Source: Longimicrobiaceae bacterium
GTDB taxonomy: Bacteria > Gemmatimonadota > Gemmatimonadetes > Longimicrobiales > Longimicrobiaceae
Reading direction: 5' to 3'
Assembly: GCA_036375715.1 (NCBI GenBank)
Contig: DASVBS010000022.1
Coordinates: forward strand, 62,001-126,000
Length of the DNA stretch: 64,000 nucleotides
The notes under the pieces are model-generated. The model saw nothing but the letters and a program-made list of their open reading frames with translations, ran no database searches and was not told where the DNA came from. Positions 14,538-61,252 of the stretch are shown here, in pieces; within the stretch, counting starts at the first letter, position 1, and each line of letters begins with the position of its first letter. A program made the position numbers and the translations under genes.

Positions 14538-14558
14538 TCGCCCGTCGCGCCGCCGCCG

Positions 14559-15401: not shown

Positions 15402-15419
15402 CCGGAGGATGGAATCGCC

Positions 15420-15794
15420 ATGCTGCGGATGATGTGTAAATCGAAGATCCACCGGGCTACTGTGACCGGCGCGGATCTGAACTATATGGGATCGATCACC
15501 ATCGATCCGGATCTCATGGAGGCCGCCGACCTGCTCGAGTACGAGCAGGTGCACGTGGTCAACATCAACAACGGCGCTCGCTTCGAGACGTACGTGATCC
15601 CCGGCAAGCGGGGCGAGGGAGAGATCTGCCTCAACGGTGCCGCCGCCCGCTTGGCGCACCCCGGGGACAAGGTGATCGTGATCAGCTACGCGCAGTACTC
15701 GGAAGAGGAGCTCGCCGAGCACCGACCCATCTTCATCTTCGTCGACGAGCAGAATCGGCTACACCGCGACCACATCAGGGCAGAGAGCCGCTGA
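15420..15794 (+). CDS. panD: Aspartate 1-decarboxylase proenzyme
   Basis: Pyruvoyl enzyme making beta-alanine for PanC. The 124-residue proenzyme has the self-cleavage site Gly24-Ser25 (YMGSITID), Lys9, [12 protein letters not shown] and the C-terminal strand [10 protein letters not shown]. All residues needed for maturation are present. It completes the pantothenate cluster. Confidence 0.96.
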
Positions 15795-15798
15795 CGCG

Positions 15799-16650
15799 AT
15801 GGCTCGCTGGACGGGCATTATCCTCGCCCTCCCCTCATCCCGCACGGACGGGATGGTATCACGGCTGCCAGCATACCTCCATCCCATCGCAGGGCGGCCG
15901 CTGGTGTGGCACGCCGCGGCGTCGCTGGCGGAGGCGCCCTCGAAGCCGGAGAGGGTGATCGTCGTCTCGGAGGGAGATCTCCCCGCCGACCTCTTTCAGG
16001 ACCTTCCCGTTCACGTCGACGCCTTCACGGTACCGGACGCCGAGAGCCGCCAGCGCAGTGTGCTGCAACCGCTCGGGGACGGCGAGGAGCGGTGTCTGGC
16101 GGTGCACGCCGCCGCCGTACTGGCGGCGGAAACGCTCGAGGTGTTGCTCGATTCCTCCCCGGGGTCGTGGGTCGTGGGAGGACCCGAAGACGCCGCCGCC
16201 GCGCACGGCGACCCCGAGCGATTGTCGCAGCTCCTACGCCTTCCCGATCCCTTCGCCGTTCCCAATGGCGTGCTCGCCGCCGCAGACCGCCTCTCCGATT
16301 CGCGCGACACCTCCATCGTCCAGAACCGCGCACAGCTCGCAGCCACCTCTGATCGGATCCGTCGACAGATCGTCCGCGGGCACATGGCTGCCGGCGTCAC
16401 CTTCCTCCTGCCGGAGACGGTGCTGGTGGACGTCGATGTGCGGATCGGTCGCGATAGCATCCTCTATCCCGGCGTGGTGCTGGAGGGGTCGACCACGGTC
16501 GGCGACGAGACCGTGATCGGGCCGGGCTGCCGGATCATCGACAGCTGGGTCGGGAGCGGGGTCGAGCTCAGAGGCTGGAACTACATCTCGCACACCTCGA
16601 TCCGCAACCGAGCCATCCTGGAGCCTTATGTCCGACGCGGCTTCGACTGA
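15799..16650 (+). CDS. GlmU-like protein lacking both catalytic centres
   Basis: A 283-residue protein resembling a shortened GlmU. The N-terminal part keeps the nucleotidyltransferase outline (GIILALPSS..RLPAYLHPIAGRPLVWH), but the LAAGxGTRM loop is lost and the PKVLH lysine is replaced by Ala. From about residue 190 it has the GlmU-type linker helix and left-handed beta-helix coils (VDVDVRIGRDSILYPGVVLEG, IGPGCRIIDS), then stops where the acetyltransferase active site would begin. Neither activity is expected. It begins 4 nt after panD and overlaps the HD gene by 23 nt. A binding or regulatory role is possible but unproven. Confidence 0.65.
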   Translation: MARWTGIILALPSSRTDGMVSRLPAYLHPIAGRPLVWHAAASLAEAPSKPERVIVVSEGDLPADLFQDLPVHVDAFTVPDAESRQRSVLQPLGDGEERCLAVHAAAVLAAETLEVLLDSSPGSWVVGGPEDAAAAHGDPERLSQLLRLPDPFAVPNGVLAAADRLSDSRDTSIVQNRAQLAATSDRIRRQIVRGHMAAGVTFLLPETVLVDVDVRIGRDSILYPGVVLEGSTTVGDETVIGPGCRIIDSWVGSGVELRGWNYISHTSIRNRAILEPYVRRGFD

Positions 16651-17233
16651 GCTACCCGTCAGCTGGGTTTCCGCGACCGTCGCTGCCGCCGCGGCCGGCG
16701 AGCTCCCGCCATGGGCTCGGGTGACCGAGGCGAGGCGCGAGCACATCGGGCGGGTCACCGCCCTGATGCGCCAGTGGGCCGAAGAGCTCGGCCTCCCCGC
16801 CGTGGACCGGATGCGCTGGGCTGCGGCCGGGATGCTCCACGATGCCCTGCGGGACGCCGACACGGCCGAGCTCCGCACGATTCTCGGTCGCCGCTTCCTT
16901 GACCTGCACCCGGTCCTGCTGCACGGCCCGGCCGCGGCCCACCTCCTCTCCGCCGACGCTGACGAGGCCCTCCTGCGGGCCATCCGCTACCACACGCTCG
17001 GGCACCCGGAGCTCGACCGGCTTGGTCGGGCGCTCTACCTGGCCGACTTTCTCGAACCGGGGCGCGACTTTGCGCGGGAATGGAGGGCTGAGTTGCGCGA
17101 GCGGATGCCGCGCGAGCTCGATTCAGTGGTCCGAGAGGTGGTGGCCGCGCGCATCCGACACCTGCTGGAGGACGGCAAGCCGATACGTCCGGAAACCGCC
17201 GCGTTCTGGTCGTCGTTGACGGAGGAGGCGTGA
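16628..17233 (+). CDS. yqeK: YqeK-type HD-domain hydrolase
   Basis: HD-superfamily protein of 201 residues resembling YqeK, the symmetrical Ap4A hydrolase often found near nadD/rsfS. The metal ligands are visible as HD in MLHDALRD, LHGPAAAHLL, the AIRYHTLGHPELD segment and ADFLEPGR. The N-terminal 30 residues are extra. ATG 16628 overlaps the preceding gene and its stop overlaps the GTG of the LytR_C gene. nadD and rsfS are not adjacent here, so the substrate assignment rests on family resemblance. Confidence 0.75.
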   Translation: MSDAASTELPVSWVSATVAAAAAGELPPWARVTEARREHIGRVTALMRQWAEELGLPAVDRMRWAAAGMLHDALRDADTAELRTILGRRFLDLHPVLLHGPAAAHLLSADADEALLRAIRYHTLGHPELDRLGRALYLADFLEPGRDFAREWRAELRERMPRELDSVVREVVAARIRHLLEDGKPIRPETAAFWSSLTEEA

Positions 17234-17661
17234 AGGGCTTGAAGGTCGCCGCTCTGGTGGGGCTCTGCGTGCTGGTGCTGTTCCTCGTGGGGTCGATGGT
17301 GATGGGGATGCGCGGCGAGAGGCCGCCGGAGCTCGCCGGGGTCGAGGTCGAGTTACCGGAACGGCGCGTCCGCGTCGAGGTGCTGAATGCCGCCGGCATC
17401 CCCAGGCTGGCGCAGCGAGAAACCGACCGCCTGCGCGACGAGGGCTTCGACGTCGTCTTTTTCGGGAACGCGAGAGGATTCCACCCCGACACCTCGCTGG
17501 TGCTGGACCGGGTGGGAGACCCCGCCGCCGCGCGCGCGGTCGCCGCGGTGCTTGGTATCAACCAGGTTCGCGAAGCACCGGATACCAGCCTCTACCTCGA
17601 GGTGACGGTGATCCTGGGGCGCGATTGGGCGGAGGCTAACGCCGAGAGCGTGGCAAACTAG
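17230..17661 (+). CDS. Membrane-anchored LytR_C domain protein
   Basis: A 143-residue protein with one N-terminal membrane segment (about residues 5-27) and a periplasmic LytR_C domain: VRVEVLNAAGIPRLA, then the LRDEGFDVVFFGNA and YLEVTVILG strands. LytR_C domains occur alone or on LCP cell-wall proteins; the ligand is unknown. GTG 17230 overlaps the yqeK stop. It ends 4 nt inside the convergent rlmN. Confidence 0.8.
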   Translation: MKGLKVAALVGLCVLVLFLVGSMVMGMRGERPPELAGVEVELPERRVRVEVLNAAGIPRLAQRETDRLRDEGFDVVFFGNARGFHPDTSLVLDRVGDPAAARAVAAVLGINQVREAPDTSLYLEVTVILGRDWAEANAESVAN

Positions 17662-18773
17662 GCGAGCTCGGACGCGGCGGTTTTGAGGCTCGACCCGAGT
17701 TTGACGAGCGGCCGACCGCGGGTGGCCTCCGCCTTGAGCTGCCCGCAGGCGGCGGCGATGTCGCGCCCTCGCGGTTCTCGAACGTGGGCGGTAACCCCGC
17801 GGCGGGCGAGTCGCTGTGCGAAGGCGGCCAGTCGATCGGGCGGCGTGGGCCTCCAGTCGTTGGCGGGGATGGGGTTGAACGGTATCAGGTTGACGAAGGC
17901 CTTGAACTCACGCACCAGCTCGGCCAGGGCGTCCGCCTCGGCCAACCCGTCGTTCACCCCGTCGATCATCACGTACTCGAAGGTGATCCGCTTGCCGCCG
18001 GCCTCGTCGAACGCGCGCAGCGCCTCCATGAGCCGCGGGAGCGGATACTTCTTCTCTACCGGGATGAGTTGCTGGCGAAGCTCGTGGGTCGGGGCGTGCA
18101 GCGAGACAGCCAGGCGGTACTGCTGCGGCATCTCCGCCATCCGCAGAATGCCGGGTACGATGCCCACGGTGGAGACGGTGATGCGCCGCGCGCCCACGCC
18201 GTAGGCCTGGTTGAGGAGCTCCAGGGCCGGAAAGACCGCCCTGGGGTTCATCAACGGCTCCCCCATCCCCATGAACACGATGTTGGTGATGGGGCCGTAG
18301 CCGTTCTCCAGGGCCCACACCTGCGCCCCGCGGTACTGCGCGACGATCTCGCCCGCGGTGAGCTGCCGCTGGTAGCCCATCCAGCCGGTCGCGCAGAAGG
18401 TGCAGGCCATGGCGCATCCGGCCTGCGAGGAGATGCAGAGGGTCAGGCGCTCTCGCGCGGGAATGAGCACCGACTCGATCAGCTCGCCGTCGGCGAGCTT
18501 CCAGAGGTGCTTCGTCGTGCCGTCGACGGAGCGCGATAGCTTGGCCGTTTCCGGCGCGGACAGGGAGAAAGCTTCGGCGAGTGCCTCCCGCTCCGCCCGC
18601 GGCAGATCGGTCATCCCCACGAAGGAGAAGGCCAGCTTCTCATACAGCCACGCCAGGACCTGGCGCACCCGGTAGGCGGGCTGACCGCGCGCGGCGAAGT
18701 AGTCCGCGAGCGCGCGCGCGGCCTCTTCGGGCGAGCAACCGAGCAGATCTGGACGGGAGACGGCTGTGATCAT
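17658..18773 (-). CDS. rlmN: 23S rRNA (A2503-C2)/tRNA methyltransferase
   Basis: Radical SAM enzyme methylating C2 of A2503 in 23S rRNA and A37 in some tRNAs. It has 371 residues. The cluster motif is GCAMACTFCATG, with CxxxCxxC spacing; FMGMGEPLMN binds SAM. The remaining landmarks are VSLHAPTHELRQQLIP, FEYVMIDGVND and the second catalytic Cys in the C-terminal GRDIAAACGQL. ATG 18773 is divergent from ptsN. Confidence 0.96.
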   Translation of the reverse strand: MITAVSRPDLLGCSPEEAARALADYFAARGQPAYRVRQVLAWLYEKLAFSFVGMTDLPRAEREALAEAFSLSAPETAKLSRSVDGTTKHLWKLADGELIESVLIPARERLTLCISSQAGCAMACTFCATGWMGYQRQLTAGEIVAQYRGAQVWALENGYGPITNIVFMGMGEPLMNPRAVFPALELLNQAYGVGARRITVSTVGIVPGILRMAEMPQQYRLAVSLHAPTHELRQQLIPVEKKYPLPRLMEALRAFDEAGGKRITFEYVMIDGVNDGLAEADALAELVREFKAFVNLIPFNPIPANDWRPTPPDRLAAFAQRLARRGVTAHVREPRGRDIAAACGQLKAEATRGRPLVKLGSSLKTAASELA

Positions 18774-42403: not shown

Positions 42404-42856
42404 GTGCCCGCGATCACCTGCAGCATCACCGACCAGCCGATCGACGCGGCAGCTATTCTGAACTCGGCGATCTCGCCGAGCGATGGTGCCGCGCTGCTCT
42501 TCCTCGGCGTCGTGCGCAATCACAATGAAGGCCGCGAGGTGGGGCACCTCGAGTACTCCGCTTTTCGGGAGATGGCGGAGCGCGTTCTCGCCGAGATCGC
42601 GCGCGAGGCCGCGGAGCGCTGGGAGACGGGCGACATCACCGTAGTGCACCGCATCGGCCGGCTGGACCTGGGGGAGGCGAGCGTGGCCATCGCGGTGGCC
42701 TCGCCCCACCGGGATGCCGCCTATCAGGCCTCGCGCTACATCATCGAGGAGCTGAAGCGGCGCGCTCCTATCTGGAAGAAGGAAGGGTACCTGGAAGGAG
42801 AGTCGGCGTGGCTCTCGGGCCACTCGCCCGCGCCCCGGGAGCTCGCGCATGAGTAG
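42404..42856 (+). CDS. moaE: Molybdopterin synthase catalytic subunit
   Basis: Partner of MoaD, converting precursor Z (cPMP) to molybdopterin. It has 150 residues with GAALLFLGVVRNHNEGR, YSAFREMAE, VVHRIGRLDLGEASVAIAV and the lysine-bearing IWKKEGYLEGE. GTG 42404 has GGAGG seven bases upstream; an in-frame GTG at 42398 is too close to it. The end overlaps moaA by 8 nt. Confidence 0.94.
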   Translation: MPAITCSITDQPIDAAAILNSAISPSDGAALLFLGVVRNHNEGREVGHLEYSAFREMAERVLAEIAREAAERWETGDITVVHRIGRLDLGEASVAIAVASPHRDAAYQASRYIIEELKRRAPIWKKEGYLEGESAWLSGHSPAPRELAHE

Positions 42857-43904
42857 CCGCCTCGTCCAGCTAGGCGAGTCGCGCGCGACTTTCCCCGAGC
42901 GGCCCGTACCGACCACCGGCCCGATGGAGGACGGGTTCGGCCGTCGCATCGAGTACCTCCGCATCTCGGTCACCGACAAGTGCAACCTCCGCTGCGTCTA
43001 CTGCATGCCCGAGGAGGGATTACCGTGGCTGCGGAGGGAGGATCTCCTCACCTTCGAGGAGATCACCGAGATCGTTCGGGAGATGGCGCAGATGGGCCTC
43101 CGCAGGCTGCGGATCACCGGCGGAGAGCCGCTGGTGCGACGGGATCTGCCTCGGCTGATCGAGTTGCTCCGCGAGATCCCCGGAATCGAGGACATTGCGC
43201 TCTCGACCAACGCGGTCCTGCTGGCGGACCAGGCGGCGGCGCTGCGGGAGGCCGGCGTCGATCGGATCAATGCCTCGCTCGATTCCCTGCGGCCGGAGCG
43301 AGTGGATGCGATCGCGCGCCGCGCGGGCTCCGCGGAGAAGATCTTTGCGGGATTGCGGGCGGCCGAGGCCGTCGGGTTCGCCCCCATCAAGGTGAATTGT
43401 GTGGTGATGAGGGGGATGAACGACGACGAGCTGGTCGACTTCGCCCGCATCACCCTGGAGCGCCCGTGGCACGTCCGGTTCATCGAGGTCATGCCGACCG
43501 GGGACAACCTCGAGATCTCGCGCGATGCCTTCGTGTCCGCGGACGAGATACTCGAGCGGATCGCCTCCATCGGGGCGTTGTCGCCGGTCGAGGGCCCTCG
43601 AGGGAACGGCCCCGCGCGCTACTTCGCCTTCGCCGGCGCGCCGGGCACGGTGGGCGTGATCACCCCCATGAGCCACAACTACTGCGACCGCTGCAACCGC
43701 ATGCGGCTCACCGCCGATGGGCAGCTCCGCCCCTGCCTCTTCGGCGAGATGCAGACCAACCTCCGCGATCCCCTTCGTCGTGGTGAGCCGATCGCTCCGC
43801 TCATCCGGCAGACCCTGCGAATCAAGCCCGAGCGCCACTGGCTGGCGGCGGGGAGCGACCGTGGTAGCGGAGGGCTCCGTGCGTTGTCTCAGGTGGGGGG
43901 GTGA
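42849..43904 (+). CDS. moaA: GTP 3',8-cyclase (molybdenum cofactor)
   Basis: Radical SAM enzyme that starts molybdenum-cofactor synthesis from GTP. It has 351 residues. The N-terminal cluster is C45-C49-C52 (KCNLRCVYCMPEEG), the second cluster cysteines are in HNYCDRCNRMRLTADGQLRPC, and the C-terminus ends in the functional GG. moaC, moeA and moaB/mog are not adjacent, so the pathway is completed elsewhere. Confidence 0.96.
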   Translation: MSSRLVQLGESRATFPERPVPTTGPMEDGFGRRIEYLRISVTDKCNLRCVYCMPEEGLPWLRREDLLTFEEITEIVREMAQMGLRRLRITGGEPLVRRDLPRLIELLREIPGIEDIALSTNAVLLADQAAALREAGVDRINASLDSLRPERVDAIARRAGSAEKIFAGLRAAEAVGFAPIKVNCVVMRGMNDDELVDFARITLERPWHVRFIEVMPTGDNLEISRDAFVSADEILERIASIGALSPVEGPRGNGPARYFAFAGAPGTVGVITPMSHNYCDRCNRMRLTADGQLRPCLFGEMQTNLRDPLRRGEPIAPLIRQTLRIKPERHWLAAGSDRGSGGLRALSQVGG

Positions 43905-45673: not shown

Positions 45674-46107
45674 AGGCGCCCGGCGGAGTGGTCGAGCGGC
45701 GCATCGCTCGGCGGGGTGGTGGTCACCTGAAGCCGACGGGGAGCCGAGGGGGCTTCGAGCTCTGGTCCTGGTTCTTCATGCGCATTTCCGGCCTAGTGCT
45801 GATCTTCCTGGCCCTCTATCACCTCATCTGGTGGAACCTGGTGATCGGGGTCGAGCACCTCGACTCGGCAATCGTGATCGAGCGCTGGAACAATCCGCTC
45901 TGGCGCTTCTTCAATGTCATGCTGATCACGCTGGCCATGCTGCACGGACTGAACGGCCTGCGCTACGTCATCGAGGACTACGTGCGTAGCCCTGGTAAGC
46001 AGGCCGCGACCAAGGCCGTGGCCTACACCGTGGTGCTCTCGGTGCTTGCGTTTGGCATTTACGCGCTGGTGACTTTCGATCCGGCTATCTTCTTCGCCGA
46101 CCGATGA
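45670..46107 (+). CDS. sdhD: Succinate dehydrogenase membrane anchor subunit
   Basis: Second anchor of complex II, 145 residues with three membrane helices. SWFFMRISGLVLIFLALYHLIWW and MLHGLNGLRYVIEDY carry the conserved Arg and His. GTG 45670 overlaps the sdhC stop and has GGAGG upstream; the longer frame is rejected. Its end overlaps sdhA by 4 nt. Confidence 0.9.
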   Translation: MKAPGGVVERRIARRGGGHLKPTGSRGGFELWSWFFMRISGLVLIFLALYHLIWWNLVIGVEHLDSAIVIERWNNPLWRFFNVMLITLAMLHGLNGLRYVIEDYVRSPGKQAATKAVAYTVVLSVLAFGIYALVTFDPAIFFADR

Positions 46108-47843
46108 TCCATACTCACACATACGATGCGCTGGTGGTCGGCGGCGGCGGCGCCGGCCTGATGGCCGCGATCTACCTGTCCCGGGAATCCGACATCAAGA
46201 CGGCGGTGATCTCGAAGCTCTACCCGACCCGCTCCCATACGGGCGCGGCTCAGGGAGGGATCGGCGCCGCTCTGGCCAACCTGGAGGAGGATCATCCCCA
46301 GTGGCACGCCTTCGACACGGTCAAGGGCTCGGACTACCTCGGCGACCAGGACGCCATCGAGACAATGTGCGAGGAGGCGGTGGGGGTGATCATCGAGCTG
46401 GAGCACATGGGGCTCCCCTTCTCGCGCACCCCTGACGGAAAGATCGCCCAGCGTCCTTTCGGCGGTCACACCCACCACTTCGGCCAGGGGCCGGTGCGTC
46501 GCTCCTGCTATTCGGCGGACCGCACCGGCCACATGATCCTGCAGACCCTCTACCAGAACTGCATCAAGAACGGAGTCGAGTTCTACGACGAGTTCCAGGT
46601 AGTAGACCTCCTGTTGAATGAGGGGCGCTGCGTGGGTGTGGTGGCGTACGAGGTGGCCACGGGCGACCTCCACGTCTTCCGGGCCAAGGCGGTGAACTTC
46701 GCGACCGGTGGGTTCGGGCGGGTCTGGTCGATCACCTCGAACGCGCACGCCAATACGGGTGACGGGCCGGCGGTGGCGCTGCGTCGCGGCATCCCGTTGC
46801 AGGACATGGAGTTCTACCAGTTCCATCCGACCGGCATCTACCGTCTCGGGATCCTGATTACCGAGGGCGTGCGCGGAGAAGGTGGGGTGCTGCGCAACGA
46901 TCTCGGCGAGCGTTTCATGGAGCGCTACGCTCCGACCATGAAGGACCTCGCCTCCCGCGACGTGGTGGCGCGGGCCATCAACCAGGAGATCCGGGAGGGA
47001 CGGGGGATCAACGGGAAGAAGTACGTCTACCTCGACGCCACCCACCTCGGCGCCGAGGTGATCGAGAAGAAGCTCCCCGACATCGCTGATTTCTGCCGCA
47101 CCTATCTGGGCGTGGATCCGGTGCGCGAGCCGATGCCGATCCAGCCGACCGCGCACTACGCCATGGGAGGCATCCCCACCGACGTGAACGGGCGGGTGGT
47201 GATCGACGCGCAACGAACCGTCTTCCCTGGCCTCTATGCGGCGGGGGAGACGGCCTGCGTCTCGGTGCACGGCGCGAACCGGCTGGGCACAAACTCGCTG
47301 CTCGACCTGGTCGTTTTCGGCAAGCGCTCGGGCGTCGACATGGTGCGCTTCTGTCGCGAGAACGACCTCGGTCCGCTCCCCGAGAATCCCACGGCCGAGA
47401 TCGCCGCGACATTGCAGCGCCTGCTGGATAACAAGGATGGCGAGCCGGCCGCCCGTCTGCGCGAAGAGATGCAGGACGTGATGCAGGACGACGTCGGCAT
47501 CTTCCGCGACGGCAAGGGGATGGAACGTGCGTTGACCAAGGTGCGCGAGCTGCGCGAGCGCTACCGTAACGTGGTGGTAATGGACAAGGGAAAGCGCTTC
47601 AACACCGACCTCATGGAGGCCTGGGAGCTGGGGAATCTGCTCGATCTGGCCGAGGTGACGACGTGGAGCGCCCTGAACCGGAAAGAGAGTCGTGGCGCGC
47701 ACATGCGCGAGGATTTCTCCAAGCGCGACGACCAGAACTGGCTCAAGCACACGCTCGCGTATCGTCGGGAAGACGACACGATCGAGCTCGCTTACAAGCC
47801 CGTGACGATCACGAAGTTCGAGCCGAAGGAGAGGGTGTACTGA
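46104..47843 (+). CDS. sdhA: Succinate dehydrogenase flavoprotein subunit
   Basis: Oxidises succinate to fumarate with covalent FAD. It has 579 residues: GGGGAGLMAAI for FAD, RSHTGAAQGGIG with the flavin-linking His, HPTGIY, TEGVRGEGG with the catalytic Arg region, and GAGETACVSVHGANRLGTN near the C-terminal FAD site. It shares the order CDAB with other bacteria and overlaps neighbours at both ends. Confidence 0.97.
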   Translation: MIHTHTYDALVVGGGGAGLMAAIYLSRESDIKTAVISKLYPTRSHTGAAQGGIGAALANLEEDHPQWHAFDTVKGSDYLGDQDAIETMCEEAVGVIIELEHMGLPFSRTPDGKIAQRPFGGHTHHFGQGPVRRSCYSADRTGHMILQTLYQNCIKNGVEFYDEFQVVDLLLNEGRCVGVVAYEVATGDLHVFRAKAVNFATGGFGRVWSITSNAHANTGDGPAVALRRGIPLQDMEFYQFHPTGIYRLGILITEGVRGEGGVLRNDLGERFMERYAPTMKDLASRDVVARAINQEIREGRGINGKKYVYLDATHLGAEVIEKKLPDIADFCRTYLGVDPVREPMPIQPTAHYAMGGIPTDVNGRVVIDAQRTVFPGLYAAGETACVSVHGANRLGTNSLLDLVVFGKRSGVDMVRFCRENDLGPLPENPTAEIAATLQRLLDNKDGEPAARLREEMQDVMQDDVGIFRDGKGMERALTKVRELRERYRNVVVMDKGKRFNTDLMEAWELGNLLDLAEVTTWSALNRKESRGAHMREDFSKRDDQNWLKHTLAYRREDDTIELAYKPVTITKFEPKERVY

Positions 47844-48589
47844 TGGCGCAGACCGCCGCATCCGCGCCCCCGCGCGCGCCGGCCACCTCGACAGCCACGA
47901 TCAAGATCCTGCGCTTCAACCCGGAGACCGATCGCGAGCCGACGTACCGGAGCTACCAGGTCCAGGTCGAGCCGACGGACCGGGTGCTCGATGCGCTCAA
48001 CACGATCAAGTGGTACCAGGACGGGACGCTCACCTACCGCCGCTCGTGTGCGCACGGGGTCTGCGGCTCGGACGCCATGCGCATCAACGGGGTCAACCGA
48101 CTGGCCTGCAAGGTGTTGATGCGCGACGTGGGAAGCGAGGTAGTGGTGGAGCCGTTGATGGGCTTCCGGGTGATCAAGGACCTGGTGGTGGATATGGAGC
48201 CCTTCTTTGCCCAGTACCGCTCCATCTTCCCCTACCTCATCAACGACGAGCGCCCGCCGGAGCGGGAGCGGATCCAGTCGATCGAGGAACGCGAGATCTT
48301 CGACGATACCACCAAGTGCATTCTGTGCGCGGCCTGCACTACCTCGTGCCCGTCCTTCTGGGCGAACGAGGAGTTCGTCGGGCCGGCGGCGATCGTGAAC
48401 GCGCACCGTTTCATCTTCGACTCTCGCGACCACGGGGCGAACTTGCGGCTGGCGCGCCTCAACGGGCGCGAAGGGGTCTGGCGCTGCCGCACGATCTTCA
48501 ACTGCACCGAGGCCTGCCCGCGCGAGATCAAGATCACCAAGGCGATCGGTGAGGTGAAGAAGGCGATTCTGTACGGCGGAGTGGGATGA
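47843..48589 (+). CDS. sdhB: Succinate dehydrogenase iron-sulfur subunit
   Basis: Carries electrons from FAD to quinone through three clusters. It has 248 residues: the [2Fe-2S] motif (SCAHGVCGSDAM), the [4Fe-4S] motif (CILCAACTTSCP) and the [3Fe-4S] motif (CRTIFNCTEACP) are complete. A Pro/Ala-rich N-terminus of about 18 residues is extra. ATG 47843 shares a base with the sdhA stop. Repeat locus E begins one base after the stop. Confidence 0.97.
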   Translation: MAQTAASAPPRAPATSTATIKILRFNPETDREPTYRSYQVQVEPTDRVLDALNTIKWYQDGTLTYRRSCAHGVCGSDAMRINGVNRLACKVLMRDVGSEVVVEPLMGFRVIKDLVVDMEPFFAQYRSIFPYLINDERPPERERIQSIEEREIFDDTTKCILCAACTTSCPSFWANEEFVGPAAIVNAHRFIFDSRDHGANLRLARLNGREGVWRCRTIFNCTEACPREIKITKAIGEVKKAILYGGVG

Positions 48590-50345: not shown

Positions 50346-51782
50346 TCACCAGCGCGGTGGCACGACGGCCCACGAAGCGCCCCAGCAGGCCACGGTGCCG
50401 GTGGACCTTAACGCGCAGGTGCCCCAGTTCGCCGCGCTCAGCTGTGTGAAGGTACCCGCGGGAGGCGTCGCCTGGCCAAGCTCATTGCTCCCCCAGCAGG
50501 CGAGGGTGCCGTCCGAACGGAGGGCGCAGGTGTGTTCGACGCCTGCGCTGACCTGGGTGAAGGTGCCGTCGGGAACTCCGCTCACCTGGCCCTCGCTGTC
50601 GTCGCCCCAGCAGATCACGGAGCCGTCCCGGCGCAGAGCACAGCTGTGGGTGTGGCCCGCGCTCACCTGGACGAAATCGGTGCCGGGGGGTGGCGAGGCC
50701 TGGCCGAGGTCCGGGATTCCGCCGCCGCCGTCAACCGCTCCCCAGCACGAGATGGAGCCATCCCGCCGCAGCGCGCAGGTGTGCGAGTTGCTCGCGCTGA
50801 CCTGCACGAACGGTCCTTCGTGCGTGTGGGTTGCCGAATAGGTCGGGGAGCCGCCGACCTGGCCGGCCCAGTTGTCGCCCCAGCAGTAGACCGAACCGTC
50901 TCCACGGAGCGCGCAGACATGCGAGCCACCCGTGCTCACCTGCGTGAAGTCGGAGGAGTGGAGCGTGCAGGTGTACAGCCAGAGCGAAGGGTGGTCGCAA
51001 GCCCAACCCTCTTCCGGGGGGTTGCTGTACCGAACGAGTAACTCGCTGCCCCAACAGGTGAGCGTGCCGTCGCCGCGCACCCCACAGCCGACGACGTTGG
51101 CGTAGCCCGCATCCACCTGGACGAAGCCGGCGCCGGGTGGCTGCAGGTCGGTGGGTCCGCAGGTCACGGTGCCGTCCGCGTGCAACCCGCAGTTGTTCTC
51201 CCCCGCGCTCACCTGGACGAACCGCACGGCGGTCCGGGTGCGGGCCGCGACCAAATCGAAGTGCACGGTGAACGGACCTGGCTGGAGCGCGTCGACGTAG
51301 AGCACCGCCTCGAACACGTCCTCGGGGCCGACCGACTCACGCGGCAGCTGCAGCCCGGGGTGACGCAGCACCGCCACACGGACCCGGCAGTTGACACAAT
51401 GCATCGGCGCGGCCGCGTCCCCCACCTCGTCGCGCCGGAAATCCACGCTGTCCAGCACGATGTCCTTTACCGTGAAGCGCACGGTCAGGACCTGATCCTC
51501 CAGCGCCTGGTTCCCGCACCCCTCACAGGTTACGCTGGCCTCTACGTGGTCGGCCGTCACCGGCACGCGGGTCAGAGACGGGCCCCCGGCTCCGCTGGCG
51601 ACACCGGCTCCCTGCCGCAGCTGGACCACCCCGATCGCGGGGTCGACCTCCAGCGCGATCTGGGCGACGACCGAGCGATCGTCGGGGAGTGGAGCTTCGG
51701 CCGCGGGGCCGAGTAGGCGCGGGCTCTCCTGACAGCCGACGAGGAGAAGCGCCAGCGGGAGGAGGAACGATCTCGATCGCAT
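50346..51782 (-). CDS. RCC1-repeat lipoprotein
   Basis: A 478-residue protein with a lipoprotein signal (LALLLVGC, lipid Cys at residue 17) and a C-terminal beta-propeller. The propeller has at least six RCC1-type repeats of the form FxQVSAGxxHxCALRxDGSVxCWGxN, about 45 residues apart, each with two Cys that could pair. An N-terminal domain (about 20-185) holds VTCEGCGNQA and HCVNCRV. RCC1 propellers bind proteins or ligands at the surface. It follows the RiPP cluster on the same strand after about 130 nt; a link is uncertain. Confidence 0.8.
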   Translation of the reverse strand: MRSRSFLLPLALLLVGCQESPRLLGPAAEAPLPDDRSVVAQIALEVDPAIGVVQLRQGAGVASGAGGPSLTRVPVTADHVEASVTCEGCGNQALEDQVLTVRFTVKDIVLDSVDFRRDEVGDAAAPMHCVNCRVRVAVLRHPGLQLPRESVGPEDVFEAVLYVDALQPGPFTVHFDLVAARTRTAVRFVQVSAGENNCGLHADGTVTCGPTDLQPPGAGFVQVDAGYANVVGCGVRGDGTLTCWGSELLVRYSNPPEEGWACDHPSLWLYTCTLHSSDFTQVSTGGSHVCALRGDGSVYCWGDNWAGQVGGSPTYSATHTHEGPFVQVSASNSHTCALRRDGSISCWGAVDGGGGIPDLGQASPPPGTDFVQVSAGHTHSCALRRDGSVICWGDDSEGQVSGVPDGTFTQVSAGVEHTCALRSDGTLACWGSNELGQATPPAGTFTQLSAANWGTCALRSTGTVACWGASWAVVPPRW

Positions 51783-51911: not shown

Positions 51912-53240
51912 TCAAGAGTCTTCGCGTGCCTGCGGCGGGACCGCGAGGACCGACGTCCCGGCCGCGGTAGGCGGGTTCTCCGGGACGCCGGAGCGGGCAC
52001 CCGTCGTGGTGCGGTGGGATGATCGAGGGAGGAGGCCGTAGCTGGTCGTCAGGCGGAGCGGTCGGAGCAGGTAGTAGAGCGGGAAGAGCGGGTCGGGGAG
52101 GGGCAGGGCCTGCCAGTCCTCCGGGGTCGGCGTCCAGAGCGCGCGCCAGAGATAGCGCGCCCGGCCGCCCAACCCGTCCAGGGCCCTGAGCTGGAAGCGG
52201 TGGAAGGGCAGCCCCCGCGAATGGGCGGGTCGATCGTCCTCGGCGCCGATCCATGCACGCGCCTCGTGGCAGAGCCGCAGGGCCCCGCGGTCGGAGCGCA
52301 CCCGATCCGCGATCCGGTCGGGGAGCGGCGCGTCCAGCAGCTCCTGCGCCAGGCGCAGCCCGAGGAACAGCACCCGGCGGCTGCGGAAGCGTTCCGCCCG
52401 GCTGATGGCCTGGTCCCAATCGATCTCGTGCGAACGGACCAGCTCGGCGACGTCGCAGAGCCACGCGAGTCGCTCCCAGAGGTGCCGCGCGCCGTGGAAG
52501 CAGAGTACGAGAAGAAGGTCCTCCGTCCCGAAGGTCGGGACGGCCATCCCCGCCATCCGCAGCGACCGCGTAGCGGGACGCAGCGCGTCCAGGTCCAGCG
52601 ACGCGATGGGGTGGCGCGTGGCGAAGGCCCAGTGGAGCTCTACCGAGACCCGACCCGCGCCTCCATGCAGCGGGAGGTTGTTGTTGGCGCGCAGGAGCGC
52701 CCTCTGCTGCCGGGGAGAGAGTCGGTCGCGCGGGCGGTAGCCGAGGCACTGGAGAACGTCGAGGGCGCGTGGGAGGTCGTCCGGACGGACCAGCACGTCG
52801 AGGTCGGTCATCTGTCGAAAGGCCACGTCGCCGTACAGCTGGTGCGCCAGCACCGGTCCCTTGTAGGGAAGCCCGGCGATCCCGCGTGCTTCGAGGTGGA
52901 GGAGAATCTCCCGCAACGCCTTGACCAGCACCCGGCTATGGGCGGCATTGAGCGCCACCTCCGTCCGGAGCTCTCGTAGGAGGTCGGCCGGCACTTCGGG
53001 GACCGGCAGCGCTGCGAGGTGGCGCAGGAGGAAGGGGACTACCCGGTGCCGGCGGGCCAGTGCGAGCAGCTCCGGCCAGCTCACCCCCTCCCGGATCAGC
53101 GCCGCGACGCGCTCGGCCCCCGACCGGGACAGCTCGGAGCGTGCGCAGAGCACCAGAAGCTCCCACGCGCGCCCCCGGGGCAAATCCTGATCGCCGGCTC
53201 CGGGCGGGGGGTGGAGCACCTCGCTCGTCAGCGCGGGCAT
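51912..53240 (-). CDS. Nucleotidyltransferase-fold protein of RiPP cluster
   Basis: A 442-residue protein of the NTP_transf_5 group often found in lasso and related peptide clusters. The core is GIAGLPYKGPVLAHQLYGDVAFRQMTDLDVLVRP, with the DLD metal pair and upstream Lys, then FGTEDLLLVLCFHGARHLWERLAWLCDVAELV. The C-terminal tail is Pro/Thr-rich and unlike the family. It starts one base after the B2 stop and ends the operon. It may nucleotidylate or otherwise modify the peptide; the reaction is not established. Confidence 0.75.
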   Translation of the reverse strand: MPALTSEVLHPPPGAGDQDLPRGRAWELLVLCARSELSRSGAERVAALIREGVSWPELLALARRHRVVPFLLRHLAALPVPEVPADLLRELRTEVALNAAHSRVLVKALREILLHLEARGIAGLPYKGPVLAHQLYGDVAFRQMTDLDVLVRPDDLPRALDVLQCLGYRPRDRLSPRQQRALLRANNNLPLHGGAGRVSVELHWAFATRHPIASLDLDALRPATRSLRMAGMAVPTFGTEDLLLVLCFHGARHLWERLAWLCDVAELVRSHEIDWDQAISRAERFRSRRVLFLGLRLAQELLDAPLPDRIADRVRSDRGALRLCHEARAWIGAEDDRPAHSRGLPFHRFQLRALDGLGGRARYLWRALWTPTPEDWQALPLPDPLFPLYYLLRPLRLTTSYGLLPRSSHRTTTGARSGVPENPPTAAGTSVLAVPPQAREDS

Positions 53241-53241
53241 G

Positions 53242-53706
53242 TCACGCCGGCCGGGGGAGGGCGGAGGGGATTCGGTGCATCACGACGAAGGCCGTGCGCG
53301 GGTCGCCCTCCTCCAGATACGGCCGCCCGTCGCGCTCCAGCCAGCAGTGGCCGCTGAGCCTGCCCCCCGCGGTGAGGGTGGCGCCGAAGCAGAGGCGCAG
53401 CTCCATGCCCGCGCGACGGAGGAAGTAGTAGCGGGTGACCCCACGCGTGAGACAGCCGGGGCGGATCCACGGCCCGCCGCCGCGCAGCACCCGCTCCACG
53501 CACGCGGACACGCGCGCCACCGTCGGCGCATCCGCGGGGGGTGGGGGGCGGCGCGGCTCGAGGAACCGCTCCAGCGCCGAGAGCGGCAACCGCACTAGCG
53601 CCGGAGCCGCCATCGCCACGAGGAAAACGCGGGCCAGAAGGAGGCTCCTCTCGATCCGCGGTAAGCCCCCTCGTGGGCGCGAGATAGGGATCGTCGTCTC
53701 CGTCAT
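53242..53706 (-). CDS. Lasso-type B2 protein (transglutaminase-like leader peptidase)
   Basis: A 154-residue protein of the transglutaminase-like family that removes the leader in lasso-peptide pathways. The catalytic triad can be placed at Cys85 (RPGCLTRGVTRYYFLRRAG), His120 (SGHCWLERDG) and Asp126. It lies 14 nt after the pqqD-like gene. With the RRE protein it should recognise the leader and cut near the conserved Thr of the precursor (inference). Confidence 0.85.
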   Translation of the reverse strand: MTETTIPISRPRGGLPRIERSLLLARVFLVAMAAPALVRLPLSALERFLEPRRPPPPADAPTVARVSACVERVLRGGGPWIRPGCLTRGVTRYYFLRRAGMELRLCFGATLTAGGRLSGHCWLERDGRPYLEEGDPRTAFVVMHRIPSALPRPA

Positions 53707-53720
53707 CCGAGCGACCGCGC

Positions 53721-54023
53721 TCAGCCTGGCTGCCGGCGGCCGACCAGGCCCTCCTCGCGTAGCAACGCGACGAACTCGGCCACCAGGGCCGCCGCCGCCT
53801 CGCTCGTGACCTCGTACTCCGCGACCAGCGCCTCGACCGCCGTGGCGACGTCGCCAGAGCGCTCCAGCGCCTCCCAGATGCGCATCCCGGTCTCGTTCAG
53901 CGAGTAGTAGCGCTTGGTCTCGATGCTCAGGAGGATCCCCTCCGTGTCGCTCACGCGAGTGAAGACGACCTCGGGGCTGGGTCGGATGCGGTGTGCGGTC
54001 GTGGACTCGGGACGGATCTGCAT
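53721..54023 (-). CDS. PqqD-like RiPP recognition element
   Basis: A 100-residue PqqD-family protein, equivalent to lasso B1, that binds precursor leaders and presents them to the enzymes. It shows VVFTRVSDTEGILLSIETKRYYSLNETGMRIWEAL followed by the three-helix end with a VTSEAAAALVAEFVALLREEGLV pattern. It sits 19 nt after the radical SAM gene. Confidence 0.88.
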   Translation of the reverse strand: MQIRPESTTAHRIRPSPEVVFTRVSDTEGILLSIETKRYYSLNETGMRIWEALERSGDVATAVEALVAEYEVTSEAAAALVAEFVALLREEGLVGRRQPG

Positions 54024-54042
54024 GGCGAATCGGCGAGGACGC

Positions 54043-55080
54043 TCAGCGCGGCGCGGACGGGAGGACCGGCAGCGACCGAGTGCGGGCCCGGCGCGGCACC
54101 TTGCCGTAATGCTCCAGGCAGTGAGCGCAGATGAAGTGGTCGCGTTCGTCGGCAGGCCCTTGCGCCAGCCGCTCGATCTTCTCGCGGTTGAGGCGCGCGA
54201 TCCGCTTCACCAGCCGTTGGTGCGCCTCGTATAGGCTGACCCGGGCCAGGTCGGCGATGACGTCGGTGTCCGGGGTCCCGCCGCGGTAGTTGGACAGCGT
54301 GCAGCAGGCGGTGAGGTAACCCCGATAGTCGACGTTGAACTCCCGCATCTCGAGCTGCGGGCACTGGTAGAAGCGGGACTCCTCGTAGTGGTCGCCGGCG
54401 AGCAGGATCCGCAGCCGGAGGGCGCGCTGCAGCGCCGCGATCTCGGCCTCCACCTCCCGGCGTTCGCGCGGGTCCAGCACCAGGCCGGCCGCCTCCGCGT
54501 CGGGCGTGGGCTGGCAGTGCCCGTAGAACAGCGCCTCGCACCCGAGGCGACTTGCCAGCATCGCCATCGCCTCCAGCTCCGAGCGGTTGGCGCGGGTCAC
54601 CACCATGTTCAGGTGGACCGGGACACCCCAGGCGCGACAGAGCGCGACGCCCTGTAGCACGCGACGGAACGAGCCCGCGCGTCGGCGCAGGGTGTCGTGC
54701 GTCTGCTCGGTCGCGCCGTCGAGGCTGAAGGTGACGTGCGCGCACCACTCCCGGTACGGCCGGAGCTGCGCGCCGGTGCGGGAGACGAACTGCCAGCCGT
54801 TGGTCACGAAGCCGAACCGGTAGCCGTGCTCCGTCACCCGGCGAAGGATCTCCGCGAAACGCGGGTGCAATGTGGGCTCGCCGCCGGTAAAGGCCACGAA
54901 GTTCACGCTCCGGTAAGCCTTCGCCTCGACGAGCACCTTTTCGACCAGCTCGACGGGGAGGAATGTGCCGGTTCCCCCCTCCTCCCGGATGCAGTGCGTG
55001 CAGCGGAAGTTGCACACGTCGGTCAGCTCGAAGATGAGCTTGATCCCCGGACGCCGGTCGGGGGTGGGAGCGTGTCTCAT
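54043..55080 (-). CDS. Radical SAM peptide-modifying enzyme
   Basis: A 345-residue radical SAM protein. The cluster motif is C23-C27-C30 (VCNFRCTHC), SAM is bound at FTGGEPTLHP, and the C-terminal half has Cys in QCPQLEMREFNV, LTACCTL and ICAHCLEHYG, as in SPASM or twitch domains with one or two auxiliary clusters. ATG 55080 overlaps the kinase stop; the longer frame is rejected. In this setting it probably installs a C-C, C-S or epimer modification in the precursor core; the exact reaction cannot be read from sequence. Confidence 0.85.
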   Translation of the reverse strand: MRHAPTPDRRPGIKLIFELTDVCNFRCTHCIREEGGTGTFLPVELVEKVLVEAKAYRSVNFVAFTGGEPTLHPRFAEILRRVTEHGYRFGFVTNGWQFVSRTGAQLRPYREWCAHVTFSLDGATEQTHDTLRRRAGSFRRVLQGVALCRAWGVPVHLNMVVTRANRSELEAMAMLASRLGCEALFYGHCQPTPDAEAAGLVLDPRERREVEAEIAALQRALRLRILLAGDHYEESRFYQCPQLEMREFNVDYRGYLTACCTLSNYRGGTPDTDVIADLARVSLYEAHQRLVKRIARLNREKIERLAQGPADERDHFICAHCLEHYGKVPRRARTRSLPVLPSAPR

Positions 55081-56117
55081 GCGCCCATCAGCCGGCTGGG
55101 AGACGGTGCGGGGGAGCCGACGGAGACCAACGGTTCGAGGAGTTCCACCACGCGCTCCGGGGCGTCCTCCACGTCCCGGCCCGCGAGCAGGCGGTAGCCG
55201 CGCGCCTGGGCCGCCAGCCGGCCCAGGACGGCCAGGTGGCAGGGAAGCGTCTCCGGATCGAGCGCCAGAACGGCGCTCTGAGCAATGAGGCGCGGCAGCA
55301 TCTCCGCCGGCGCCAGCGGCACGAGCCGGCTCTTGGCCAGAGGCGCGATCTCGGGGAACAGCAGCACCTGCGGGCGGCAGCACGCCACGAGCCGGTGCGG
55401 GAAGAGGGTGCGCATGTCGAGCCGATGCTTCCCCCTCCCGGCGAATGGACCGGGCGCCCCGTGAACGGCGACCTCGGGGAAGCGCGTGGCCAGGACGGGG
55501 TCGAGGCAGAGATCCCGGCGCAGGGCCAGGCCCTCCACCCCCTCGCCGAGCGGCCGGAGTAGAAGGGCGTCGTCTGCGAGATAATCCCAGCCGCCGCGCA
55601 CCAGGGTGTAGGTGATCGTGGACTTACCGCTGCCGGACCCCGCGACGAACAGGTAGCCGGCGCCGCGGTAGACGACCGCCGAAGCGTGCAGCGCGAAGAG
55701 GCCGCGGCGGCGGACCAGGAGGAGGAGGGCGTAGACAACGAGGTCCTTGCGCGGCGGGTCGGTGGCGCCGGGGAGCCAGCCCTGCGCCACGCCGCCACGG
55801 AGGTCGAGGCGGAAGTGGTGCGCCCCCGAATCCAGCCAGAGCCCGGTATCGGAACCAAGCGCGCGAATGCCGTCCTGACGGGCGATCTCCCGCGCGTCGT
55901 CGGGGAGCGGCGGCGCCTGGCGGGCGGAGACCACCAACCGTAGCGGGACGGGGTCGGGATTCGGCACCGCCGTCCCCAGCCCGAAGTGCTCGAGGATCGC
56001 GCGCACCCGCAGGAGGAGTGACGGGTCATCGCCCTCCAGGCGTAGCCCCACGCCGTGGAGCGCATACGTGTAGGTCCGAGACTGCCGACTTCCGGGGGCT
56101 GTCCGCACGGCGTCCAT
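55077..56117 (-). CDS. HprK-related kinase of RiPP cluster
   Basis: A 346-residue P-loop kinase-like protein related to the HPr kinase group seen in lasso clusters, where some members phosphorylate the precursor at a C-terminal Ser. Walker A is GSGSGKST (160-167), preceded by ALHASAVVYRGAGYLFVAG, and the acidic pair is at 182-183 (YLADDALLL). ATG 56117 is preferred to TTG 56126. It starts 52 nt after the precursor stop and overlaps the radical SAM gene. The precursor core contains Ser and Thr as possible targets. Confidence 0.8.
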   Translation of the reverse strand: MDAVRTAPGSRQSRTYTYALHGVGLRLEGDDPSLLLRVRAILEHFGLGTAVPNPDPVPLRLVVSARQAPPLPDDAREIARQDGIRALGSDTGLWLDSGAHHFRLDLRGGVAQGWLPGATDPPRKDLVVYALLLLVRRRGLFALHASAVVYRGAGYLFVAGSGSGKSTITYTLVRGGWDYLADDALLLRPLGEGVEGLALRRDLCLDPVLATRFPEVAVHGAPGPFAGRGKHRLDMRTLFPHRLVACCRPQVLLFPEIAPLAKSRLVPLAPAEMLPRLIAQSAVLALDPETLPCHLAVLGRLAAQARGYRLLAGRDVEDAPERVVELLEPLVSVGSPAPSPSRLMGA

Positions 56118-56169
56118 GCAGCTCAAGCCGGGGAGCGACCGTCCGGGTGCGCGCTGCGGCGCCCGTTCG

Positions 56170-56340
56170 TCACGGACTGAAAGTCCCGATGAAGGAGCCG
56201 GTTACCTCCGGAAGGGAGCCGTGTCGCGTGAGCTCAGGCCGGACCATCGGCTTACGCGGCGCCGCCGTGCGCGACGTCTCCTCTGGCTGCGGCGAAGGGG
56301 TGCGGGGCTCGGGTCTCATGTCCGTTCCGGTCGTCGCCAT
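56170..56340 (-). CDS. Candidate RiPP precursor peptide, lasso-type leader (56 aa)
   Basis: A 56-codon gene heading the cluster. The leader matches the lasso recognition rule Y-x2-P-x-L-x3-G-x5-T: Met32 stands for Tyr, then Pro35, Leu37, Gly41 and Thr47. Cleavage one residue after the Thr, as in lasso peptides, would leave SFIGTFSP, an eight-residue core with two Phe, two Ser and one Thr but no Asp or Glu. A lasso ring is therefore not possible. ATG 56340 has GGAG six bases upstream; a longer TTG start at 56415 lies in the -35 box. The N-terminal half is Pro/Thr/Ser-rich. Confidence 0.7.
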   Translation of the reverse strand: MATTGTDMRPEPRTPSPQPEETSRTAAPRKPMVRPELTRHGSLPEVTGSFIGTFSP

Positions 56341-56386
56341 TCCAGTCTCCGCGTAGAGGTGGCGGGCGGATCGGGAAACTCCTGTA

Positions 56387-56415
56387 TCCATAATCTGCGA
56401 AGGGATGGGTGGCAA
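56387..56415 (-). promoter_or_regulatory. Promoter of RiPP operon
   Basis: On the minus strand TTGCCA (56415-56410), 17 nt spacer, TATGGA (56392-56387); about 40 nt of leader to the precursor ATG. Confidence 0.5.
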
Positions 56416-58808: not shown

Positions 58809-59164
58809 AAGCAGATCAAAGAAGGATTACAATGCGGCCGAGGATTACGTACTTATGCGAAAAGGCCTCGTGACCATAGTCTCGGCCAGAGGCTGGCTCG
58901 CCCGTAGCGATGGCAGCGGCTCGTCGTGTACAGACGGTACGCGGCGTTGGGCGCAGGGCGCCCACTGGTGGCTGCTGCTCACAGACGCGAAGCCGACCTG
59001 CGATCTTGTCGTTGAGGAGGTCGAGAGCGTGTGATGATGCGGCCCGGGTCACGACGGAGGGGCGTGCGGTTGACCGTCGACGGGCTTTCGGAGACCTTCG
59101 ATGCAGACTGGGGCTACCGCATGCTCTTCGATTCTGCCGCCAAGCGCACGTAGAAACAGGAATC
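58809..59164 (+). other. Intergenic region upstream of recQ
   Basis: About 356 nt. A 79-codon frame (58795-59034) overlaps the zinc-ribbon gene start and has no family match. A short in-frame tail (59035-59151, ...DADWGYRMLFDSAAKRT) may be the end of a decayed gene. A weak promoter TTGACC-17-GACCTT ends near 59100. Nothing else seen. Confidence 0.35.
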
Positions 59165-61252
59165 TTGCCCACCGAAAAAGCACGCGAACTCCTGCACCGA
59201 TACTGGGGTTACCCCGACTTCCGTGCCGGACAGAAGAAGGCCATCGAGGCGATTCTCTCCCGCCGGGACACCCTCCTCATCATGCCCACCGGGGGCGGGA
59301 AGAGCATCTGCTACCAGGTCCCGGCGCTGCTCTTCGACGGCGTCACCATCGTCGTTTCCCCCCTCATCTCCCTGATGAAGGACCAGGTGGACACGCTGGC
59401 GCAGGCGGGGCTGCCGGCCACCTTCATCAACTCGAGCCTCTCCAGTTCGGAGATGGCGGCGCGGCTGGAAGCGGTCGAGCGCGGGGCCGTCAAGCTCGTC
59501 TACGTCGCCCCGGAGCGCTTCGACAGCCCCGCCTTCGCGGAGCGGGTTCGCCGCCTCGACGTGTCCCTGCTCGCGGTCGACGAGGCCCACTGTGTCTCGC
59601 AGTGGGGACACGATTTCCGACCGTCCTACCTGCGGGTCGGCAGGGTGCGCGAGATGCTCGGAGACCCGCCGATCGCGGCCCTGACCGCCACCGCCACGAG
59701 GGAGGTGCGGGAAGACATCGAAAGGCAGCTCCGCCTGCGTGACCCCCAAGTCTTCATCACCGGGTTCGATCGGCGGAACCTCCTCTGGCGCGTCCTCCGA
59801 GCGAAAAACGACTCGGAGAAGGACCGCCTCCTGCTCCGCCTCCTCCAGGGGCGCCAGGGCGGCCTCGGCTTCTCGCTTGAGAACAGCAGCGGCTCCGCGA
59901 TCGTCTACGCCTCGACGCGAAAGAGCGTCGACGCGCTCACCTCCCTGCTGGGCGGGATCGGGATAGCCGCGGTGGGCTACCATGCTGGTCTGCGCGACAC
60001 GGAGCGGAAGCGCATCCAGGACGCCTTCATGGCGGGAGAGGCTCGCGTCGTCGTGGCCACGAATGCGTTCGGGATGGGGATCGACAAGCCCGACGTGCGC
60101 CTCGTGGTGCACTACAACATGCCGGGCACTCTCGAAGCGTACTACCAGGAGGGCGGCCGCGCCGGGCGGGATGGAGGACAGTCGGACTGCGTGCTGCTGC
60201 ACGCCTATCCCGACCGCTTCACCCACGAGTTCTTCATCGAGCAGACCTACCCTCCTCGCAGCCTGGTCGAGAGCCTCGTCCGCGAGCTGCGCTCGCGAGC
60301 CGACGCCGAGGGAGCCATCCGCCTGGGGACCGCCGAACTCGTGCGCACGCTGCCGGGAGGCCCTAAGGATCGGCAGGTCGCCTCCGCGCTCCGCCTACTC
60401 GAGGAGGCGGGCATCATTCGCTCGTTGTCGGCGGGAGGGTCGACCGGAGCACACGTGCGGTTGATCGCGACAGCCGAACGGATCCGCCGAGAGATCGACC
60501 GTCCCGACCGGCAGGAGGAGTTGCTCTTCCTGCGACGTCTCTGGCGGCTGGGAGGTGGCAACGGACTCTACCGGGGCGCTGCGATGCGCTGGCGGGACCT
60601 CGGAGCGGCGGCGGGTGGCCGTGAGCGGGCGGCGGAGCTGATGGATGCCCTGCAGGACGAGGGAGTGCTGGAATGGACGCGCTTCCTGGACGGAGAGGGG
60701 ATTCAGCTGTTGGACCGCTCCACCCGCGTGGATCGTCTTCCCATCGACTGGCGCAGGCTCGAGGCCAGGAAGAGGCGGGATCTCGACAAACTGCAGAAGA
60801 TGCAGGGTTACGCGTACACCGACCGCTGTCGTCGAGGATACGTTCTACGCTACTTCGGCGATCCCGATGCCATGGACGAATGCGGTGCCTGCGACGTCTG
60901 CATGGGTGAGGCACGCCAGGCTGATCGTCCCCGGGAGACGCGAGAGGACCGCACTGTTGCGGCGCGCCCGCAGGGGACGCGGCGATCCCGCGCACGCCGC
61001 ATCCGCGACGTCACACCCTACACCCCCACCCCCGCCGAGGAGCAGCTGTTCGAACGCCTGCGCGCGGTTCGCAGTCAGCTCGCCCGCGGAGATGGGGTTC
61101 CCGCCTACTGCGTGTTCAACGACCGCACGCTCGCGGAGCTCGCGCGCCGCCGACCCGCCACCGAAGACGCCCTGCTCGAGATTCCCGGCGTGGGTCCTGC
61201 GAAGGCGGCGAAGTACGGACGCGCCTTCCTGGAAATTCTCCAGGAGGCGTAA
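59165..61252 (+). CDS. recQ: ATP-dependent DNA helicase RecQ
   Basis: 3'-5' DNA helicase in recombination repair. From TTG 59165 it has 695 residues: helicase motif I (TGGGKS, about 42-47), the DEAH box (VDEAHCVSQWGHDFRP), motif VI (QEGGRAGRDG), the RQC zinc-binding module (CRRGYVLRYFGDPD..CGACDVC) and a C-terminal HRDC domain (ELARRRPATEDALLEIPGVGPAKAAKYG). The long in-frame upstream extension is not like RecQ; AGGA before TTG supports the start. The linker before HRDC is Arg-rich. Confidence 0.93.
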   Translation: MPTEKARELLHRYWGYPDFRAGQKKAIEAILSRRDTLLIMPTGGGKSICYQVPALLFDGVTIVVSPLISLMKDQVDTLAQAGLPATFINSSLSSSEMAARLEAVERGAVKLVYVAPERFDSPAFAERVRRLDVSLLAVDEAHCVSQWGHDFRPSYLRVGRVREMLGDPPIAALTATATREVREDIERQLRLRDPQVFITGFDRRNLLWRVLRAKNDSEKDRLLLRLLQGRQGGLGFSLENSSGSAIVYASTRKSVDALTSLLGGIGIAAVGYHAGLRDTERKRIQDAFMAGEARVVVATNAFGMGIDKPDVRLVVHYNMPGTLEAYYQEGGRAGRDGGQSDCVLLHAYPDRFTHEFFIEQTYPPRSLVESLVRELRSRADAEGAIRLGTAELVRTLPGGPKDRQVASALRLLEEAGIIRSLSAGGSTGAHVRLIATAERIRREIDRPDRQEELLFLRRLWRLGGGNGLYRGAAMRWRDLGAAAGGRERAAELMDALQDEGVLEWTRFLDGEGIQLLDRSTRVDRLPIDWRRLEARKRRDLDKLQKMQGYAYTDRCRRGYVLRYFGDPDAMDECGACDVCMGEARQADRPRETREDRTVAARPQGTRRSRARRIRDVTPYTPTPAEEQLFERLRAVRSQLARGDGVPAYCVFNDRTLAELARRRPATEDALLEIPGVGPAKAAKYGRAFLEILQEA

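Follow-up and report, generated by a model that had tools for sequence, protein, structure and literature searches.

A probable peptide-modification operon with lasso-type parts, a radical SAM enzyme and no cyclase gene in a Longimicrobiaceae bacterium and its relatives

Can the recognition and cleavage parts of a lasso-peptide system serve a pathway that has no lasso cyclase? The question is raised by a stretch of 64,000 nucleotides from a Longimicrobiaceae bacterium (GCA_036375715.1, contig DASVBS010000022.1, positions 62,001 to 126,000), here called the window. Between 51912 and 56340 on its minus strand lies a tight run of genes for a precursor peptide, an HprK-like kinase, a radical SAM (S-adenosylmethionine) enzyme, a PqqD-type recognition element (RRE) of the kind found in pathways for ribosomally synthesized and post-translationally modified peptides (RiPPs), a B2 leader peptidase and an NTP_transf_5 nucleotidyltransferase. 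We think it likely that this is a RiPP operon in which the RRE would deliver the precursor to the radical SAM enzyme and the HprK-type kinase, B2 would remove the leader and the product would carry no macrolactam. The features are:

56170..56340, minus strand: precursor peptide of 56 aa, MATTGTDMRPEPRTPSPQPEETSRTAAPRKPMVRPELTRHGSLPEVTGSFIGTFSP; open frame, with a longer TTG start possible at 56415
56173..56196, minus strand: predicted core SFIGTFSP (or GSFIGTFSP), from the sequence, with a predicted cleavage site
55077..56117, minus strand: HprK-like peptide kinase; HprK_rel_A 5.5e-8 (below cut-off), with His, P-loop Lys and Asp-Asp in place
54043..55080, minus strand: radical SAM enzyme; PF04055 9.7e-26, with CX3CX2C and five invariant C-terminal Cys
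53721..54023, minus strand: discrete PqqD-type RRE (B1-like); PF05402 1.6e-18, matching solved lasso RREs
53242..53706, minus strand: B2 leader peptidase (Transglut_core3); NF033537 63 bits (cut-off 33), with Cys and His present in the alignment
51912..53240, minus strand: NTP_transf_5 nucleotidyltransferase; PF14907 209 bits, with a putative PsmN/LppN-like role

An earlier sequence-only reading had described six genes on one strand with overlaps or gaps of 1-52 nt, and this held when the genes were re-read and annotated. The kinase (56117-55077) and radical SAM (55080-54043) genes share 4 nt (ATGA). Elsewhere neighbouring genes are separated by 52 nt (precursor and kinase), 19 nt (radical SAM and RRE), 14 nt (RRE and B2) and 1 nt (B2 and the nucleotidyltransferase). 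That reading was right about the presence of a precursor and had probably started it too early, at TTG 56415. Judging from the sequence, ATG 56340 is most likely the start, because it has GGAG 6 nt upstream and gives 56 aa, in agreement with the length in relatives.

The radical SAM protein matches Radical_SAM at E 1e-25. Its C-terminal cysteines C240, C259, C260, C318 and C321 are invariant in alignments of 12 and 11 rows and are candidates for the auxiliary-cluster cysteines proposed earlier; together with CX3CX2C they agree with the cysteine pattern of RiPP maturases of the SPASM/twitch type. The structure model (pLDDT 81) has BlsE, SkfB, SuiB, viperin and PqqE as its nearest folds, a predicted likeness that does not fix the reaction. 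The LHASAV, GSGKST and LADD columns of the kinase are common to the window and its relatives, and a sequence search turned up no solved relative of this protein. The RRE matches PqqD (1.6e-18) and NF033536 lasso_PqqD (1.5e-15, below its cut-off) and aligns with the solved lasso RREs 9x90, TbiB1 and TfuB1. Two lasso-peptide features, a B1-type RRE and a B2 peptidase, are both present in the window.

The window tail, GSFIGTFSP, contains two Ser and one Thr that could be phosphorylated and zero Asp/Glu. The acidic ring residue of a lasso core (Asp/Glu at position 7-9) is absent from it, so lasso ring closure is impossible. The leader is clearly related in sequence to that of a relative's precursor (locus L122, LTRHxSL), with a score of 70, whereas none of 2000 shuffles scored above 51. 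Tails in relatives include QTGSPIGGGGAGGSTVF, QTGGGIPCGSSTVCP and QTGPGIPGGGGPGGGGSTVII, and 21 of 22 precursors have a Ser within the last 8 residues. The G-S-T-V-F/I-type end conserved in relatives and the window's GSFIGTFSP would likely be the target region of the modifying enzymes.

Using the radical SAM protein or its alignment as query in the order, phylum and class, we found 22 radical SAM loci in 20 related genomes (L and G numbers below are our labels for loci and genomes). In the first alignment these proteins are 33-38% identical to the window's, with CX3CX2C and the five C-terminal Cys invariant; a scan of genome contigs with the window protein gave distant radical SAM proteins only, matching part of the protein. 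A short open reading frame with a lasso-like leader was found in 20/22 loci, usually directly before the radical SAM gene (not found in L057 and L118). RRE, B2 and HprK recur near the radical SAM gene and are grouped together in most relatives, and NTP_transf_5 adjoins HprK in five loci and RRE-B2 in L158 and L159. The closest layout is on contig C37 of G419 (L159), where the order radical SAM-HprK-RRE-B2-NTP is nearly that of the window. Contig C315 of the same genome (L121) reads precursor-lipoprotein-radical SAM-HprK, and the ends of the two contigs encode near-identical proteins; the pair may represent a single locus or its variants from different strains. Because many relatives' contigs end inside or near the cluster, gene absences in many of them are weak evidence, and G165 (5 contigs) and G044 (one contig) weigh most. 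A second precursor type, RRPFVRPQVSELGKLTTLTLISGGF and RKPFVRPSVEDLGGLTLVTLTVSVPVGP, occurs at L053:13959 (with 14091-15996) and L054:16236 (with 16449-18247). It adjoins genes for an HprK-like kinase and for a protein with a formyltransferase domain, in a stretch with no cyclase, and may give rise to a phosphopeptide that is formylated and has a very short tail.

No cyclase is found among the six window genes by family matches. The window has no Asn_synthase match, and a whole-genome search put all matches on other contigs, as expected from the earlier claim that cluster and 64-kb window lack a cyclase. We mapped Asn_synthase (PF00733) and B2 in the genomes of the radical SAM loci and compared their coordinates. 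For fifteen B2 genes, three of them in the window's genome, an Asn_synthase gene is found at a distance of no more than about 4 kb, and in the mapped genomes no B2 gene lying with the radical SAM/RRE/HprK set has an Asn_synthase nearby. The same set recurs in relatives with no asparagine-synthetase-like gene beside the radical SAM loci, the synteny that the sequence-only reading had proposed to look for; a cyclase gene just outside the cluster in relatives, which would have told against that reading, did not turn up at these loci. In G165 (99% complete) the whole set is present and B2 occurs once; the genome's sole PF00733 match is a weak one, which we assign to QueC from its recognisable motifs. 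By the PF00733 search an asparagine-synthetase-like gene is absent from the whole G165 genome, so a cyclase in trans is not needed there. The radical SAM enzyme would then take the place of the cyclase.

In a tree built from joined RRE and B2 domain sequences, one branch separates the modules linked to radical SAM genes, the window's included, from the phylum's lasso-linked modules. Support for this split is 94/85 (91/91 in a first run), it is present in 94% of bootstrap trees, and 0/500 shuffles were as low. The HprK tree has the same split, weakly (79/85). By the RRE+B2 tree, the radical SAM-type modules thus belong to a lineage separate from that of the phylum's lasso modules.

The genes present, their conserved catalytic residues, their recurrence with a precursor and the lack of a cyclase are observed; from these we infer the enzymatic steps, their order and the product. 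The RRE would bind the MVRPELTRHGSL leader and so bring the precursor to the enzymes that mature it. The radical SAM enzyme would make the defining modification, a crosslink, an epimerisation or another, on the short Ser/Thr/Phe-containing tail, and the HprK-type kinase would phosphorylate a Ser of the tail. Kinases of this type in paeninodin, pseudomycoidin and LPP phosphorylate Ser, at times repeatedly, and the Ser near the precursor end is in keeping with PadeK, PsmK and LppK, which are known to be specific for Ser (PMC9266682; PMC13381572). NTP_transf_5 may decorate the phosphate, as does PsmN in pseudomycoidin, which attaches a hexose to phosphoserine; among the known families the RRE binds the leader and B2 removes it (PMC9266682; PMC13381572). 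By analogy with lasso and LPP precedent, B2 would cut near the conserved leader Thr, and no macrolactam would be formed.

Several observations weigh against this pathway. The HprK, PqqD and leader matches fall short of their NCBIfam cut-offs (lasso_leader_L3 on the window precursor: 16 bits, cut-off 19). The window lacks the W/Y of the RRE-binding motif: the residue is Met (MVRP), as compared to Trp (WxxP) in most relatives and Tyr in the phylum's lasso precursors. Several relatives have the genes scattered across 5-10 kb or split between contigs, as in G195, with radical SAM-HprK-precursor (L122) on one contig and lipoprotein-RRE-B2-NTP (L158) on another. In the RRE+B2 tree the branch leading to the window is long (1.62), with L158 and L159 nearest. 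Finally, the window NTP_transf_5 is 39% identical over 383 aa to that of a lasso locus in its own genome and barely alignable with the radical SAM-type NTPs, an affinity from which the operon may be partly mosaic.

How much of this is new? The earlier suggestion of an undescribed RiPP class has to be narrowed, since a RiPP with a lasso-like leader, HprK and NTP transferase and no cyclase has been known since 2026 (LPP; Popov 2026, PMC13381572); the combination of radical SAM enzyme and B2, and the separate lineage, remain as the new part. LPP shares with the window a discrete lasso-like RRE, an HprK-like kinase (in the window a match below the family cut-off), an NTP transferase, a lasso-like leader and the absence of a cyclase. 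Its leader logo, YxxPxVLxHQxIxFET, agrees with the window leader MVRPELTRHGSLPEVT at P, L (L/V), H, L (L/I) and T. LPP differs in having an SpI-type signal peptidase, a transporter and, in the tested case, a 45-aa core, in belonging to Bacillota, and in that no radical SAM enzyme is mentioned (PMC13381572). Given this common logic, the window operon could be a version of LPP whose peptide is modified mainly by phosphorylation, with the radical SAM enzyme as an accessory. We consider this unlikely, because the window has B2 where LPP has the SpI-type peptidase (no SpI-like leader peptidase is among the window cluster genes), the LPP paper mentions no radical enzyme, and the radical SAM gene usually directly follows the precursor, in loci that were all found through this gene.

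Paeninodin- and pseudomycoidin-type lasso clusters (PadeK, PsmK/PsmN; PMC9266682) share the RRE, B2, HprK-type kinase, nucleotidyltransferase and a Ser near the C-terminus, but differ by their cyclase, by the acidic residue in the ring and by having no radical SAM enzyme. The models of the SynChlorMet cassette (NCBIfam TIGR04248-04251), namely ScmD (PqqD-like), ScmC and the radical SAM models ScmE and ScmF, match window proteins, all far below cut-off; ScmF is the best NCBIfam match of the window radical SAM protein (92, cut-off 400). This cassette differs in its two radical SAM models, and no B2 or lasso-like leader is among the models examined. In the RRE-Finder study (PMC7470986), about 300 discrete lasso RRE matches co-occurring with radical SAM proteins were counted as false positives; they share with the window a discrete lasso-type RRE near a radical SAM gene, and the sections of that study drawn on here do not describe the kinase/B2/NTP set or precursors. 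Among open-licence papers, those on SynChlorMet, on HPr kinase with radical SAM and on Longimicrobium with lasso included, no description of the set was found. The recurrence in about twenty genomes suggests a family of natural peptides that has yet to be described, and there is a fair chance that the peptides of the radical SAM clusters are a family of their own. If so, the lasso module for recognition, cleavage and phosphorylation would be portable to radical chemistry, yielding short peptides that are both phosphorylated and radical-modified. Such clusters would be missed by gene finders in which a cyclase is obligatory or in which RRE-radical SAM matches are thrown out as false positives. 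The 22 aligned precursors make the reaction directly testable.

After the genes above, lipoprotein genes recur most often beside the radical SAM genes. Many of the lipoproteins have in common an N-terminal domain of ~190 aa, for which Pfam gave no convincing match, and have variable C-terminal parts (propeller repeats; metallopeptidase-like HETKH in L055). This conserved secreted partner is seen in relatives and was not visible to the sequence-only reading. The lipoprotein features are:

L117:8797-9396, L116:10521-11120, L121:2602-3291, L158:2994-3653 and others: conserved secreted-lipoprotein domain (alignment A6)
50346..51782 of the window, minus strand: RCC1-repeat lipoprotein; PF13540 2.2e-45, 129 nt downstream of NTP_transf_5, membership in the cluster uncertain

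Both copies of the domain in G044, the sole copy of G195 and of G419, and one copy each in G165 and G197 are at radical SAM loci; G131 and G138, from the window's family, have many copies elsewhere. The window's genome has no copy, the RCC1-propeller lipoprotein holds the position, and hhalign found no homology between it and the relatives' lipoproteins. We see roughly even chances that the loci represent a RiPP family in its own right within the window's phylum, combining a radical SAM enzyme with lasso-related RRE, B2, HprK and NTP and no cyclase, whose product works with the secreted-lipoprotein domain of the same loci. A different role for the same neighbours would be as recipients of a small cofactor or prosthetic group made from the peptide, comparable to PQQ or mycofactocin; radical SAM and PqqD-type proteins are common to cofactor pathways, and the conserved domain clusters with the locus in relatives. 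This is very unlikely, because a phosphopeptide is what HprK, NTP and B2 suggest, the lipoproteins have no known enzyme function, and the window's own lipoprotein lacks a domain of which its genome has no copy.

The window's genome contains further B2 loci with Asn_synthase genes (L068, L069 and L070, on contigs C55, C54 and C8). Two of these also have HprK-like kinases, and L070 has a YxxP lasso precursor with Asp in its core. The idea that the window cluster is a lasso cluster served in trans by a cyclase from one of these three loci, with the radical SAM enzyme as tailoring enzyme, can appeal to their presence and to the NTP likeness noted above, but we give it hardly any credence and rejected it: the window tail has no Asp/Glu for a ring, unlike the phylum's lasso precursors, which have Asp in the core; the full set occurs in G165, whose genome contains no asparagine-synthetase-like gene; and the RRE/B2 lineage is separate from the lasso modules; in the window strain it is the tail that argues against it and not gene absence, since the three lasso loci have cyclases.

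A second radical SAM gene in the window (42756-43901) encodes MoaA and is unrelated to the cluster. The cluster is flanked on opposite sides by sdhAB (46104-48589) and RecQ (58910-61252). Both also adjoin it in the same-family genomes of L058, L059 and L064, and RecQ does so in L060 and L061, suggesting a conserved genomic position of the cluster.

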